Source: Chloroflexi bacterium OHK40 (GTDB lineage Bacteria; Chloroflexota; Chloroflexia; Chloroflexales; Chloroflexaceae). Taken from it: DNA of 34,561 bases. Below the pieces are notes generated by a model. The model saw only the letters and a list, made by a program, of their open reading frames with translations, ran no database searches and had not been told where the DNA came from. Location: contig SFCB01000173.1 in assembly GCA_004367505.1 (NCBI GenBank), positions 1-34,561 on the forward strand, in the 5' to 3' direction. Each line of letters opens with the position of its first letter. Position 1 is the stretch's first letter. Of this stretch, positions 1,093 through 6,009 are shown piece after piece. A program made the translations under genes and the position numbers.

Positions 1093-1593
1093 ATGGAGAT
1101 GAACCTGCGGATGCTCAGGCTCGCCCTGCTGCTGGGTCTTGCGCTGATTCTCAGCGCCTGTGGCGGCAACAGCGGCGGCGCCAGCGGTGGCGGTGGCGCC
1201 GCCAGCGGTGGCGCCAGCGGTGGCGCAACCACGATCGAGATCGGGTCGGATGGTGAGAACCTGGCCTTCGACAAGACGGCGCTCACGGCGACCGCCGGCC
1301 AGCAGGTGACAGTGCGCTTCATTAACAACTCGGCTGTGCAGCAGCACAACTGGGTGCTCGTTCAGGGCGGCGAGGCTGAGGCTGCCGCCGTGGCGAACGG
1401 AGGGCTGACGGCTGGCGCTGCCGCCGAGTACCTCCCCGCCGATAAGGCCAACGTGCTTGCCCACACCGCTGTGCTCAACGGCGGCGAGACGGGCGAGGTG
1501 ACCTTCACCGCTCCGGCCGCCGGGAGCTACCTCTTCATCTGCACCGTCCCCGGCCACTACCCGCTCATGCAGGGTACGCTCACGGTGAGCTAA
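1093..1593 (+). CDS. Auracyanin-like blue-copper lipoprotein
   Basis: This is a 166-residue type I copper protein that probably shuttles electrons at the outer face of the membrane. Residues 1-22 are a lipoprotein signal peptide ending in a LSAC lipobox with Cys23 as the lipidated residue. A Gly/Ser linker (about 24-45) made of repeated GASGG-like units follows, then the cupredoxin barrel. The copper ligands are visible: His85 (QQHNW), Cys150, His155 and Met159 in CTVPGHYPLM. Auracyanins serve photosynthetic and respiratory electron transfer in Chloroflexales, which fits the taxonomic guess. The ATG at 1093 is preferred because AGGAAAG lies 5 bases upstream; an ATG two codons later is also possible. 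The gene has its own strong promoter and a terminator-like hairpin, so it is probably monocistronic. Confidence 0.88.
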   Translation: MEMNLRMLRLALLLGLALILSACGGNSGGASGGGGAASGGASGGATTIEIGSDGENLAFDKTALTATAGQQVTVRFINNSAVQQHNWVLVQGGEAEAAAVANGGLTAGAAAEYLPADKANVLAHTAVLNGGETGEVTFTAPAAGSYLFICTVPGHYPLMQGTLTVS

Positions 1594-1624
1594 CCGGTCC
1601 CACAGACCTTTATCGGTCGCGAGC

Positions 1625-1650
1625 GAGGGGCGCAGCAGGCTGCGCCCCTC
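1625..1650 (+). terminator. Terminator-like hairpin after the cupredoxin gene
   Basis: GAGGGGCGCAG at 1625-1635 pairs perfectly with CTGCGCCCCTC at 1640-1650 around a CAGG loop. The 11-bp stem lies 31 bases after the cupredoxin stop and is followed by TGTTGTG, a weak U-tract. Its sequence resembles the dispersed palindromes at 5267 and 20281, so it may be a repeat copy serving as a terminator. Confidence 0.6.
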
Positions 1651-1831
1651 TGTTGTGCCAACCATGGTGTGGAGCGTGGCCGTGATGCGGCGTTACGGGG
1701 CATTCGCGGATAGTGGCAGGTTGTGCGGGTTTGCCGGATGCTCCCGCTTCCTCGTATGCCGTGGCACGGAAGCGCGCGGCTGCCGATGGCGGCCTATCCC
1801 CTGTCCCCTGTTCCCTGGTTGTGCCTTGCAG

Positions 1832-1860
1832 TTGACACCACCCAGCCCTTAGACTACACT
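1832..1860 (+). promoter_or_regulatory. Promoter of the parA-membrane protein cluster
   Basis: TTGACA at 1832-1837 and TACACT at 1855-1860 are separated by exactly 17 bases. Transcription would start near 1867, leaving an untranslated leader of about 175 bases before the ATG at 2044. That leader contains the palindrome at 2003-2020. Confidence 0.65.
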
Positions 1861-2002
1861 GCACAACATTCACAGGCGGCGGGGAACGGCAGCGCCGCGG
1901 TGACGAAACCCACAGTGCTCGCTCGGCACGGACGCGGCTGGTTGCATCAGTGCCTGTTCTCCCTCTCTCTGGAGTCACAATGCTTTTCTGGCGCCTGGTA
2001 CA

Positions 2003-2020
2003 GACGCAGCACGCTGCGTC
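2003..2020. repeat. Palindromic repeat copy in the parA leader
   Basis: GACGCAGC and GCTGCGTC form an 8-bp inverted repeat around AC. The same core occurs at 5267-5294 and, degenerate, at 20281-20306. Here it is bracketed by direct repeats of GGCGCCTG followed by GTAC-like bases (from 1990 and from 2029), as if inserted. It lies 24 bases before the parA start and could fold in the mRNA near the ribosome binding region. Confidence 0.6.
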
Positions 2021-2043
2021 CACGCGGGGCGCCTGTACCGCAT

Positions 2044-3096
2044 ATGGGCCGCATCGTCGCCGTCACCAATCTGAAGGGCGGAATCGGTAAGACCACGACG
2101 GTGGTCAACGTCAGCGCGGGCCTCGCTCTCAAGGGCGCCCGCGTGCTCCTCGTGGACGTGGATGCCCAGGGGAACCTCTCCATGGCCCTCGGTGTGCGCC
2201 CGCGCCGGACCCTCTACGAGGTGCTCGTGGACGGGGCCCGCGCCACCGATTGCCTGACCGCTGTGCGCCCGAATCTCGACCTGCTCGCCGCCGATGAGTC
2301 GCTTCTGACGGCCCAGCCGACGATCGCGCGGCGCCCCGACTGGCCGCGGGTGCTGGAGCAGGCGCTGCGACCCTTGCGGGCCAGCTATGAGTTTATCTTC
2401 GTCGACTGCGGCGGGTCGCTCACGGTGCTGAACCTGAATGCGTTGAACGCCGCCAGTGATGTGATTGTGCCGACGACCGTCGAGCCCTTTTCGCTCAAGG
2501 GCCTGGAGATGCTGATTGCCCAGATCGGGCGCGTGAAGGGAAGCGCCGGGAGCCTGCGGGCGATCGTGCCAACCCTCTTCGACCCGCGCCGCCGCCAGTC
2601 GGTTGAGCTGCTGGGCGAGCTGCAGACGCGCTATGGCGATCTGGTGACGGCGCCTGTGCGGGTGAATGTGCGGCTCTCCGAGTCGTCGGCGCTCGGCAAA
2701 ACGATCTACGAGTACGATCCGCGCTCGCGTGGGGCGATCGACTACGCGCAGTTGGTGGAGCATTTGAGCGCGCTCTGGGGTTTTGCGCCCCAGGCTGCCC
2801 CGGCGCCCGCGCCCATGCCTGCCATACCCCAGACCACCCGAGCGCCTGAGCCCATCCCTGCGGCACCTCAGCCCCAGCCGTCCGTGGAAGCGCGCCCCCA
2901 GCCGCCACTGCTGGAGCAGGTCCAGCCGGTGTCGGCTCCGGCGCCAGTTGTGACCGGCGCGGGGAACATGCTCTCGCTGAGCTGCCCTAACTGTGGTGGC
3001 CCGCTCCGTCGCGCTACTGTGGCTGGCTACCGGGTGGCCTACTGCGACACGTGCAAGTATCGTCGGCAGGAGTTGGCCGCCGGTGGGCGTCGCTAG
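2044..3096 (+). CDS. ParA/MinD-family ATPase with C-terminal zinc ribbon
   Basis: The 350-residue protein opens with the deviant Walker A motif KGGIGKTT (residues 11-18), followed by VLLVDVDAQGN (Walker A') and FIFVDCGG (Walker B), so it is a ParA-type ATPase of the partition and positioning family. A Pro/Ala/Gln-rich linker occupies about 250-305. The C-terminus carries a four-Cys zinc ribbon (C314, C317, C334, C337), which ordinary ParA proteins lack. No parB or parS-like site is next to it. It is the first gene of a cluster with two membrane proteins (26-base gap), which suggests positioning or regulation of a membrane complex rather than chromosome partition. The ATG at 2044 gives the correct ParA N-terminus, but it has no clear ribosome binding site. 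Confidence 0.9.
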   Translation: MGRIVAVTNLKGGIGKTTTVVNVSAGLALKGARVLLVDVDAQGNLSMALGVRPRRTLYEVLVDGARATDCLTAVRPNLDLLAADESLLTAQPTIARRPDWPRVLEQALRPLRASYEFIFVDCGGSLTVLNLNALNAASDVIVPTTVEPFSLKGLEMLIAQIGRVKGSAGSLRAIVPTLFDPRRRQSVELLGELQTRYGDLVTAPVRVNVRLSESSALGKTIYEYDPRSRGAIDYAQLVEHLSALWGFAPQAAPAPAPMPAIPQTTRAPEPIPAAPQPQPSVEARPQPPLLEQVQPVSAPAPVVTGAGNMLSLSCPNCGGPLRRATVAGYRVAYCDTCKYRRQELAAGGRR

Positions 3097-3122
3097 CCGG
3101 TCTACCCCTGTACGGGCGCTGG

Positions 3123-4520
3123 ATGGTGCGCCCCCGCTTCTCTTGTACCTCTGCGGCGCGACTCGTGGAACCATACGCGATACCTGAGGCGGATCGAGAA
3201 CTCCGCCGTGAGCCATCGGCGCGTCACGCAGGTGCTGATCTGCTCGCCGCGCTGGCACTCGGTCTGGCCTTGCTCGCTGGCCTAGCTCTGGCCTGGCTGG
3301 TGCGTGATGCGCCGCTCGCGCCGCTGCGCGCCCGCGAGTTGCTCCGCGCCGATGCGCTTACAGCGCTGATACTGATCGTTGCGGCGGGCCATGGACTTGC
3401 CGATCTGGCGCACGGCACCGGGCGGCCCCGCCGAACTGCCACGGCGGTAGTGGTTACCGGCGTGGCTGCCGCCATGGACCACCTGGGGCTGGCCGGGGTG
3501 ATGCTGCTCGTGGCCGCGTGGCTGCGGGCGGCCCGGCCCGGCCCGGCCCGCGTATGGCTGCCCGGCACGCTGCCGGCGCTCTGCACCGCTGCGGGCCTGG
3601 CGCTCACGGGGGTCGTGAGTGGCGAGTGGCGCTTCGGCGCTCCGCTAGCGGGCGCCGGCCTCAATAGCGCCAGCTTCGCACTGCTACTGATCGGCCTGCT
3701 GCTCGGGTTGGACGCGGGGGCGCTGCCGCGCCGCCGGCCTCCTGTAGGCGACCCGCTGGTGGCGCTCGGCTGCCTGTACGGGCTCCTGCGGCTCTACAGC
3801 CTCGGCCCCTGGAACCTGGGCTGGCTCGCTGCGGCGATGCTGCTCGGTGCGGCGGTCGCCCTGTGGTCGGCCTGGGAGGCAGCGGCGGCCCCGGCCCCGG
3901 CGGCCGGGCCCTGGCTGGCGCTCTTTATGGGTGGGCTGGCCCTCGTGGGCGCGGGCCTGGGCTCGGGTGCCGGGCTCACCCTTGCGGGCTATACCCTGCT
4001 CCTGCGCCCGGTGGTGCAGCTCGGGTCTGCGCCGCCAGCGCCCCCGGGGCGGGCTAGCTGGCTACTGGCCACCGCTGTTCCGCTCAGCGGGCCCTTCGTG
4101 GCGGCGTGGATGGCTGTCGCCGCTGCGGTTGCGGGCGGCCTGACGCTGCTGGCGGCCGTCGTCTGGGCGGCGGCATTGCTCGCCGCGCTGCCGCCCCTGC
4201 GGCTGGCTCGGGCGGTGCCGGCGCCGGGCAGGCCCAACGGCGATTTGCAGGCGGTGCTCGCGGCGGCCCTGAGCCTCGCGCTTGGCGCCGGTTCGCCGGC
4301 CGTGGTCGGGCTGCTGTTGCGACCACTCGTGGCGCAGTTGCAGGGTGGGCTGACGCCCTTCGGCGAGTTGGAGCTCTGGCCCTGGGCCGGACTGATCGCC
4401 TACGATGCGGCGCGGCAGCCGGTGGCTACGCTGCCCTCGATCGCGCTGCTGGCCCTGATGGCAGTGCTGGCCGCGCTCTGCTGGGTGGCGCTGCGGCTCG
4501 GCGCCCTGCGGCGGCCCTGA
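3123..4520 (+). CDS. Polytopic membrane protein, lysine-free, unknown function
   Basis: I do not recognise this protein with confidence. It is about 465 residues, almost entirely Leu/Ala/Gly/Val, with roughly 12-14 predicted membrane segments separated by short Arg/Pro loops. The segment ATAVPLSGPFVAAWMA loosely recalls the LP(x)GF(x)xKW region of complex I antiporter-like subunits (NuoL/M/N), but the Lys residues those proteins use for proton transfer are absent: there is no Lys in the whole protein. The start is uncertain: the ATG at 3123 and the GTG at 3165 both lack a clear Shine-Dalgarno. It follows parA closely and is separated by 5 bases from the next membrane gene, so the three are probably one operon. 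Confidence 0.7.
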   Translation: MVRPRFSCTSAARLVEPYAIPEADRELRREPSARHAGADLLAALALGLALLAGLALAWLVRDAPLAPLRARELLRADALTALILIVAAGHGLADLAHGTGRPRRTATAVVVTGVAAAMDHLGLAGVMLLVAAWLRAARPGPARVWLPGTLPALCTAAGLALTGVVSGEWRFGAPLAGAGLNSASFALLLIGLLLGLDAGALPRRRPPVGDPLVALGCLYGLLRLYSLGPWNLGWLAAAMLLGAAVALWSAWEAAAAPAPAAGPWLALFMGGLALVGAGLGSGAGLTLAGYTLLLRPVVQLGSAPPAPPGRASWLLATAVPLSGPFVAAWMAVAAAVAGGLTLLAAVVWAAALLAALPPLRLARAVPAPGRPNGDLQAVLAAALSLALGAGSPAVVGLLLRPLVAQLQGGLTPFGELELWPWAGLIAYDAARQPVATLPSIALLALMAVLAALCWVALRLGALRRP

Positions 4521-4525
4521 CGCCC

Positions 4526-5203
4526 GTGGGGGAGCTGCTCGGCGCGATCGGGCTGGCCTGGCCCCGCCTGCTGCTCTACCCCGGGGGGCTCTTCGCCGTT
4601 GTGGCGGCACACCTGCTCGGGGCCTGGCTGCGACGTTGCGCCGGGAGCCCGGTTCCTGCGATGGCTCTCCCAGGCCCTGCCACGCTGTGCCACGCGGTGG
4701 GAACCCTGGCGCTGCTAGCGCTGCTGCCGCTCGCGCCCGCCCGGAGTGTGCCCTTCGGCCTCGATCTGTTCATGGCCCTTGGATTGCTGGAGTGGCCCTA
4801 CCTGGCGCGTAGGGCCTCGCGTGAGCGGGTGCTGCGCGCGTATCTGCCGCTGATCGTCGCCACGACCGCGCTGGCGACGGCTACAGGAAGTGTTGAGCTC
4901 ACGGCGCTGCTGCGGGTGCCAGCCAGCCCGCAGGGCCAGGCGCTGCTCGCGGGAGGGACGGCCCTCTGGCTGCTGGCCCTCCGGCGGCTGCTCACCGATG
5001 CGTCTGGCGGCGTCGCGGATGATCTGCGCGCGCTTGGTTTGCTGCTCGTTGCCGCGCTCCCGGTGCTCGGCGCGCTGGCGTCGTTGCTGGAGGCGATCCT
5101 CCCGGGGCCGCTGGCGGGGTGGCTGCTGCCGCCCGCCGCGATGCTGATCTGCGCGCTTGCGCTGGGGGGGATGATGCGGGCCGCGCGAGGCCGGGCGTGT
5201 TAA
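4526..5203 (+). CDS. Second lysine-free membrane protein of the parA cluster
   Basis: A 225-residue hydrophobic protein with about 6-7 membrane segments and no recognised domain. The N-terminal WPRLLLYPGGLF and the later LDLFMALGLLEWPYLARRA faintly resemble the NuoH/HycD type of complex I and hydrogenase membrane subunits; this is a weak eye-level resemblance, not an assignment. It also contains no Lys. The start GTG at 4526 lies 5 bases after the previous stop, which implies translational coupling. The frame stays open far upstream, but that part overlaps the preceding gene and is not hydrophobic. Confidence 0.62.
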   Translation: MGELLGAIGLAWPRLLLYPGGLFAVVAAHLLGAWLRRCAGSPVPAMALPGPATLCHAVGTLALLALLPLAPARSVPFGLDLFMALGLLEWPYLARRASRERVLRAYLPLIVATTALATATGSVELTALLRVPASPQGQALLAGGTALWLLALRRLLTDASGGVADDLRALGLLLVAALPVLGALASLLEAILPGPLAGWLLPPAAMLICALALGGMMRAARGRAC

Positions 5204-5229
5204 ACGGCTGCGGTGCGGTGCGCGAACGG

Positions 5230-5249
5230 ATGGGGATGGATGGGGATGG
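5230..5249. repeat. 10-bp tandem duplication next to the palindrome
   Basis: ATGGGGATGG occurs twice head to tail, 17 bases before the palindromic repeat. A similar ATGGGGAT precedes the copy at 20281 by about 45 bases, so it may belong to a longer degenerate repeat unit. Confidence 0.5.
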
Positions 5250-5266
5250 CGACGCCGGAGACGCGG

Positions 5267-5294
5267 GTAGGGACGCAGCACGCTGCGTCCCTAC
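5267..5294. repeat. Palindromic repeat, most complete copy
   Basis: Two perfect 13-base arms (GTAGGGACGCAGC and its complement) surround a 2-base AC centre. It sits in the 179-base gap between the converging membrane-protein gene (+) and the 5383-6009 gene (-), where it could act as a bidirectional terminator. The core is shared with 2003-2020 and 20281-20306. Confidence 0.75.
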
Positions 5295-5382
5295 CAGGGC
5301 CGCGATGGGTGAACCGGGGCGTGGGGGTAGCTGCTGGCGGATGGGTGCGGCTGGTGCCGCTACCGACGCTCGCGGCTGGTGG

Positions 5383-6009
5383 TCAGGCTGCGTCCACGCT
5401 GCGGTAGCCACCCCGGCCACGGGGGGTGAAGGAGTCGGCGAGGTTGGCGATGATCGCGCTGGCGAGCTGCATCTCCACGCGCAAAACACTCCGCAGGCTC
5501 TGGATATCGCGGTCGGGCCACTGTTCGAAGAGGTCGGAGACGGTGCTGCTTACCAGCTGGACATAATCGAGCTGAAGGCGCTGGCCGGCGTTCGAATAGA
5601 CCCGGCGCACCTCAACGGCGATAGGCTCCATCTCGGCGGCCTCAGCGGGGTAGTAGCGTTGGAAGGCATTCTGCACCGCGCGCTGGAACATCCGCACAAG
5701 CTCGGCGTCGCTGCGCTCGGGCTGGCCGATCACCGTGGCAGTATAGGTCCAGCTCAGATCGAGCGGCTCGATCGGCAGATCACGGCCCTCGGCGATCAGC
5801 TGATGTACCGGCGACCAGGTGAAGCTCAGATCGAGCCAGGGCGGCATATTCTCATTGCTCATGGGCTCATCGTGCTCGGGGAAGAGCTCCACCTTGCAGG
5901 TGCGGTCGTGGGTTGCGGGGATCACGCTCTCAATAAAGGCGTGCTCGTGCAATCCCACGGCGAGCCAGGCATCCTCGAGCCCCGTTATCAGGTCGTCGTA
6001 CGTTAGCAT
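5383..6009 (-). CDS. Conserved-looking protein of unknown function, 208 residues
   Basis: I do not recognise this protein. It looks soluble and acidic, without signal peptide or membrane segments. The N-terminal MLTYDDLITGLEDAWLAVGL reads like a helical domain. The C-terminal third (about 130-195) is helical and amphipathic with many Leu/Val/Gln, possibly a coiled coil. The start ATG at 6009 is supported by GGGAG 7 bases upstream and by a promoter at 6042-6070. It converges on the membrane-protein cluster and is followed, on the other side of its own promoter, by the end of ada; it is not obviously co-transcribed with either. Confidence 0.75.
   Translation of the reverse strand: MLTYDDLITGLEDAWLAVGLHEHAFIESVIPATHDRTCKVELFPEHDEPMSNENMPPWLDLSFTWSPVHQLIAEGRDLPIEPLDLSWTYTATVIGQPERSDAELVRMFQRAVQNAFQRYYPAEAAEMEPIAVEVRRVYSNAGQRLQLDYVQLVSSTVSDLFEQWPDRDIQSLRSVLRVEMQLASAIIANLADSFTPRGRGGYRSVDAA

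Follow-up and report, generated by a model that had tools for sequence, protein, structure and literature searches.

Introduction

As far as we are aware, NuoH-type proteins have been described only at the point where a redox module meets the pump arm, in complex I and related complexes. A membrane arm built of one antiporter-like and one NuoH-like subunit is found in the formate hydrogenlyase of Escherichia coli (HycC-HycD, PDB 7z0s) and in the related Ech arm; formate hydrogenlyase also has [NiFe] and Fe-S subunits. The MBS complex of Pyrococcus furiosus (PDB 6u8y), with the NuoH-type subunit MbsM, is likewise a large redox complex, and respiratory complex I (NDH-1) combines the NuoN/NuoM/NuoL and NuoH folds with NuoB, C, D and I. 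In a search of open-licence papers, we found no description of an orphan pair of a NuoH-like and an antiporter-like protein.

Here, we analysed a gene cluster within a 34,561-nucleotide window, the whole stretch of DNA considered, from Chloroflexi bacterium OHK40 (contig SFCB01000173.1). The window spans the entire contig, in a 6.9 Mb genome from the order Chloroflexales. An orphan ParA-type ATPase joined to two membrane proteins, hereafter MP1 and MP2, had been proposed there as an undescribed system (the original prediction).

Results and discussion

Gene cluster and promoter-like site

The ParA-type ATPase, MP1 and MP2 are all encoded on the forward strand. The features of the cluster are as follows.

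1832-1860 (+): promoter-like site TTGACA-17-TACACT, 10/12 matches to a sigma-70-type site
2044-3096 (+): ParA-type ATPase with a Pro-rich linker and a C-terminal four-Cys zinc ribbon; ATG start at 2044
2983-3057 (+): zinc ribbon of the ParA, CPNCGG..YCDTC, residues 314-338
3123-4520 (+): MP1, predicted antiporter-like (NuoN/MrpD/HycC fold; AF2 model and fold comparison), no Lys; start codon uncertain
4526-5203 (+): MP2, predicted NuoH fold (AF2 model, fold comparison and profile matches), shortened, no Lys; GTG start
5383-6009 (-): c4, conserved protein of 208 aa, convergent to MP2; no Pfam match

The tight clustering described originally was borne out, with measured intergenic gaps of 26 and 5 bases. 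So was the single promoter, as a prediction from sequence: the site at 1832-1860, a putative promoter ahead of all three genes, was the sole sigma-70-like site in 1590-5500, where shuffled sequence would be expected to contain 0.2.

Folds of the two membrane proteins

Neither MP1 nor MP2 gave a useful match in Pfam or NCBIfam, and searches with the Proton_antipo_M (PF00361) and NADHdh (PF00146) models returned neither protein. We then relied on AlphaFold2 models, built from input alignments of 25 (MP1) and 24 (MP2) sequences, whose mean pLDDT was 85.5 and 90.6, respectively. The MP1 model matched MrpD, NuoN, NuoM, NuoL and HycC chains with Z of 25-29 over approximately 350-415 residues, the best matches being MrpD (Z 29.1) and HycC (Z 27.8). 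The MP2 model was most similar to MbsM (Z 14.3 over 201 residues), followed by HycD (13.3) and NuoH chains (approximately 12-13), and all 50 rows among the matches listed were NuoH-type subunits. Foldseek E-values for MP2 alone were weak (best 0.01). MP2 is 225 residues long, compared with 349-465 for the canonical NuoH frames extracted. As the first ~30 residues of MP1 are not common to most homologues and are poorly modelled, its start is uncertain.

The outcome of profile searches against Pfam and the PDB was divided: no Pfam match was obtained for either protein and no PDB match for MP1, whereas MP2 matched MbsM (6e-5) and E. coli NuoH (1.3e-3). Compared directly with antiporter-like subunits, the MP1 profile scored 48, and column-shuffled profiles at most 16. 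Its weak matches in other Chloroflexota (1e-5 to 7e-4) fall in genuine, ordinary NuoN-type sequences. On the strength of the predicted models, we assign an antiporter-like fold to MP1 and a NuoH-like fold to MP2 with high confidence. The complex I-like hint (NuoN/NuoH style) in the original prediction was correct, and stronger than the "weak touches" it spoke of: both folds are clear, and the MP2 profile matches NuoH homologues.

The pair corresponds in type to the two-subunit arm of formate hydrogenlyase, with HycC and HycD both among the close fold matches, and the order of the genes (antiporter-like, then NuoH-like) is that of the formate hydrogenlyase operon. However, no gene for a [NiFe] large or an Fe-S small subunit of a group 4 hydrogenase is encoded with the pair, the relay lysines of MP1 are lost and MP2 is shortened. 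MbsM is the best match of MP2 by both profile and structure, but the locus lacks the redox subunits of MBS. Complex I itself is represented by both folds in the predicted models and by profile matches that are weak but specific; NuoB, C, D and I were not found in the MP1-MP2 locus, and the PF00346 and PF01058 matches of genome G000 lie on other contigs. The earlier claim that no catalytic subunits accompany the pair therefore holds, with neither redox nor hydrogenase-like genes beside it.

A third complex I-like locus in Chloroflexales

In each of six genomes checked, we found a third complex I-like locus besides two separate canonical NuoH genes. Its products are e0, which resembles NuoD, the two antiporter-like proteins e3 and e2, the small e1 and, usually, the NuoH-like e4. 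Three examples are given below. Genome G029 is assumed to be that of C. aurantiacus J-10-fl; by the same kind of assumption, G042 is a Roseiflexus and G053 a Herpetosiphon.

L160:6017-12037 (G029; about 1526000-1532000 in the genome): third complex I-like locus with e0, e3, e1, e2 and e4
L159:5786-11693 (G000): third complex I-like locus
L161:5389-11743 (G042): third complex I-like locus, with a NuoB-like gene

With e0 as query, a match at ≤1e-20 was obtained in 60/61 genomes, although in one or two of them it is perhaps just a lower-scoring canonical NuoD. All six aligned e0 sequences have a C-terminal C-x2-C pair, and some have an N-terminal Cys pair as well. The e4 profile was strong only in Chloroflexales, with weak matches in long frames of other Chloroflexota, and it had no match in the PDB. 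The genome paper of C. aurantiacus described only two complex I clusters (PMC3150298). This Lys-poor locus is apparently specific to Chloroflexales, common to nearly all of them, and overlooked.

The nearest profile relative of MP1 was e3 (score 61-64, shuffles at most 19) and that of MP2 was e4 (49-50, shuffles at most 13, canonical NuoH 20). Furthermore, a tree separated {MP1, e3} from {e2, NuoL/M/N} with support of 92/85, a split that joins long branches. Lysine depletion is common to both sets. We consider it likely, as judged from these comparisons, that MP1 and MP2 are paralogous with e3 and e4. On the other hand, the third locus includes a NuoD-like subunit and a further antiporter, whereas the pair has neither and is located elsewhere: MP1-MP2 was not linked to the e-locus in the compared genomes, and in several genomes the e-locus is present but the pair is absent.

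Loss of lysines and relay residues

We counted 0 Lys and 48 Arg in the 690 residues of MP1 and MP2, in agreement with the original description of about 690 lysine-free, arginine-rich residues of membrane protein. If Lys were as frequent as in the order's canonical Nuo subunits (1.5-2.1%), zero Lys would be expected with a probability of 3e-5 to 4e-7. All MP1 and MP2 homologues have 0-5 Lys per protein, so the scarcity is not an effect of G+C content only; on these two grounds, chance and G+C were ruled out as its source. Lys makes up 0.23-0.42% of MP1, MP2, e2, e3 and e4, compared with 1.5-2.1% of canonical subunits.

Three positions of MP1 bear on its possible activity.

3705-3707 (+): Gly195, aligned to the TM7 proton-relay Lys; G/A/P in 25/25 homologues
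3789-3791 (+): Arg223, found in 25/25 homologues and paired with a NuoN Arg in the alignments
4104-4106 (+): Ala328, in the alignment column of the TM12 Lys of NuoN/NuoL; A/L/F/V/T/G are most frequent

According to two alignments that agree on these positions (one to NuoN, the other to a NuoL-like protein), the complex I relay lysines of TM7 and TM12 are absent from MP1, and the TM12 position is mostly small or hydrophobic. For the TM5 Glu and the TM8 Lys, no aligned position was obtained in MP1, and we presume that both are lost (MP1 of the window has no Lys). Aligned by hand, Arg223 had fallen on the TM7 Lys; we discarded that alignment, as profile alignments place the residue further on, at the NuoN Arg. 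At the corresponding sites of the e-locus, Lys is replaced by Arg in TM7 of e2 (32/33) and in TM12 of e3 (28/34). Judging solely from the lost residues, we think it somewhat probable that the pair does not pump by the classical Lys/Glu relay.

These substitutions also bear on whether the pair could function as a transporter of the Mrp or complex I type, with ion movement retained via arginines or water paths instead of lysines. The top fold match of MP1 to MrpD, the invariance of Arg223 and the Lys-to-Arg exchanges at relay sites of e2 and e3 are consistent with such an activity. Nevertheless, the relay lysines of MP1 itself were replaced not by Arg but by G/A/P in TM7 and mostly by small or hydrophobic residues in TM12; Arg223 is not a new relay because it aligns to an existing Arg of NuoN; and genes for other Mrp subunits are missing next to the pair, with no further gene of the MrpA-G type common to MP1-MP2 neighbourhoods. 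We regard ion transport of this kind as quite improbable.

Possible role of the pair

Taken together, we lean slightly towards reading MP1-MP2 as a membrane arm from the complex I superfamily, detached and specific to Chloroflexales, derived from e3/e4 and serving as a non-classical accessory module, with the ParA independent of it. The pair would have arisen as a duplicate of e3/e4-type subunits, would no longer pump protons via the Lys/Glu relay, and may provide the third complex with an accessory membrane module or an alternative one, as a scaffold or docking arm. That the complex served is the one encoded by the e-locus is a tentative and less probable part of this reading. It is likewise conceivable, but doubtful, that the pair is a complex I-type arm without any redox module, stripped of lysines and relay residues and put to new use in the membrane of filamentous Chloroflexales for structural, docking or transport purposes. 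If the detached-arm reading is true, a conserved pair without redox partners and relay lysines would show what role such an arm has outside redox-driven pumping, and would bear on whether complex I-type arms can be independent membrane modules. It also draws attention to the equally Lys-poor third complex I-like complex of Chloroflexales.

Distribution and gene neighbourhood of the pair

MP1 was detected in 48/61 related genomes and in 57/158 genomes of the class, and strong homologues were confined to four families of the order Chloroflexales (f1 to f4, of which we take f1 to be Chloroflexaceae). Pseudogene status was ruled out for MP1 and MP2, with the frames open and kept in those 48 of 61 genomes. 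A genome scan with the f1 alignment of MP1 recovered 21 loci, including relatives in Oscillochloris, Chloroflexus and Viridilinea; the same scan with the MP1 sequence of the window as query gave no match. MP2 was detected in 31 of the 34 MP1 loci, and one of the three without it lies at a contig end. In two genomes of genus g13 (L028 and L051, one of them a Candidatus Viridilinea), MP1 was present and MP2 was not detected. An MP1 relative also occurred in a contig binned as Candidatus Gracilibacteria (L150), which is probably mis-binned.

MP1 and MP2 stay paired in f2-f4, but the upstream genes differ from those of f1. In f2 and f3, the genes ahead of the pair encode a LysM protein, a LysM-polysaccharide deacetylase lipoprotein or both, with a tight order of LysM, LysM-deacetylase, MP1 and MP2 in f3, and in f4 a GH5-like protein is encoded two genes upstream. 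These neighbours would fit a cell-envelope module in which the pair supports cell-wall or polysaccharide modification. However, the gene upstream varies by family (a MobA-like nucleotidyltransferase in f4, the ParA in f1), and the deacetylase domain match is weak in the f3 genomes of genus g20. An envelope role is unlikely in our view.

The ParA-type ATPase as a neighbour of the pair

The first gene of the cluster matched AAA_31 of Pfam at 3.6e-41 and has a deviant Walker A motif (KGGIGKTT), both also features of ParA/MinD-type ATPases such as those of ParAB partition systems. It differs from the latter in its C-terminal zinc ribbon and in the absence of an adjacent parB. The C-terminal CPNC...CDTC matched Zn_ribbon_TFIIB at 2.3e-4, slightly below the Pfam cut-off, and its four Cys are conserved in orthologues. 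The four-Cys ribbon reported originally was thereby confirmed; as for the accompanying claim, no ParB was found among the scanned ORFs of the window.

The three-gene neighbourhood that had been expected to be conserved was so in part. The ParA gene lies near MP1 in 29/29 f1 genomes (≤2.2 kb in all, ≤600 nt in 21) and in 0/19 genomes from the three other families keeping MP1. The gaps are larger in eight f1 genomes, six of them from genus g10 (Chloroflexus), and in G029 a reverse-strand gene for a STAS-domain protein (L034:8063-9256, -) lies between ParA and MP1. ParA orthologues occur in most Chloroflexales, including genomes without MP1, and are more widely spread than MP1. In two genomes lacking MP1-MP2 (G005 and G017), the ParA gene is directly beside c4, which in most f1 loci comes next after MP2.

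One explanation of the f1 arrangement is a three-gene unit of Chloroflexaceae in which the ATPase localises or gates MP1-MP2, comparable to cargo-placing MinD/ParA-type ATPases. The order ParA-MP1-MP2 recurs at close range across many f1 genera, and the short gaps and one promoter-like site of the window point the same way; the three genes are perhaps co-transcribed in f1. The link is nevertheless weak because it is limited to f1 and because the ParA abuts c4 in the two pair-less genomes; the STAS gene that intervenes in G029 and the greater frequency of the ParA across the order also argue against such a unit, which we consider improbable. An obligate partnership of the ParA with the pair is similarly disfavoured and has a low probability. 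The proposal that the ParA positions or gates a membrane complex was not supported as a general mechanism, given the lack of linkage outside f1 and the presence of the ParA gene in genomes without MP1. Instead, gene content and order suggest that the ParA-zinc ribbon protein is probably a separate gene conserved across the order and a neighbour of the pair in one family only, where it is encoded upstream of MP1-MP2. In the window, a plastocyanin/azurin-like copper protein gene (1057-1593, +) lies upstream of the cluster.
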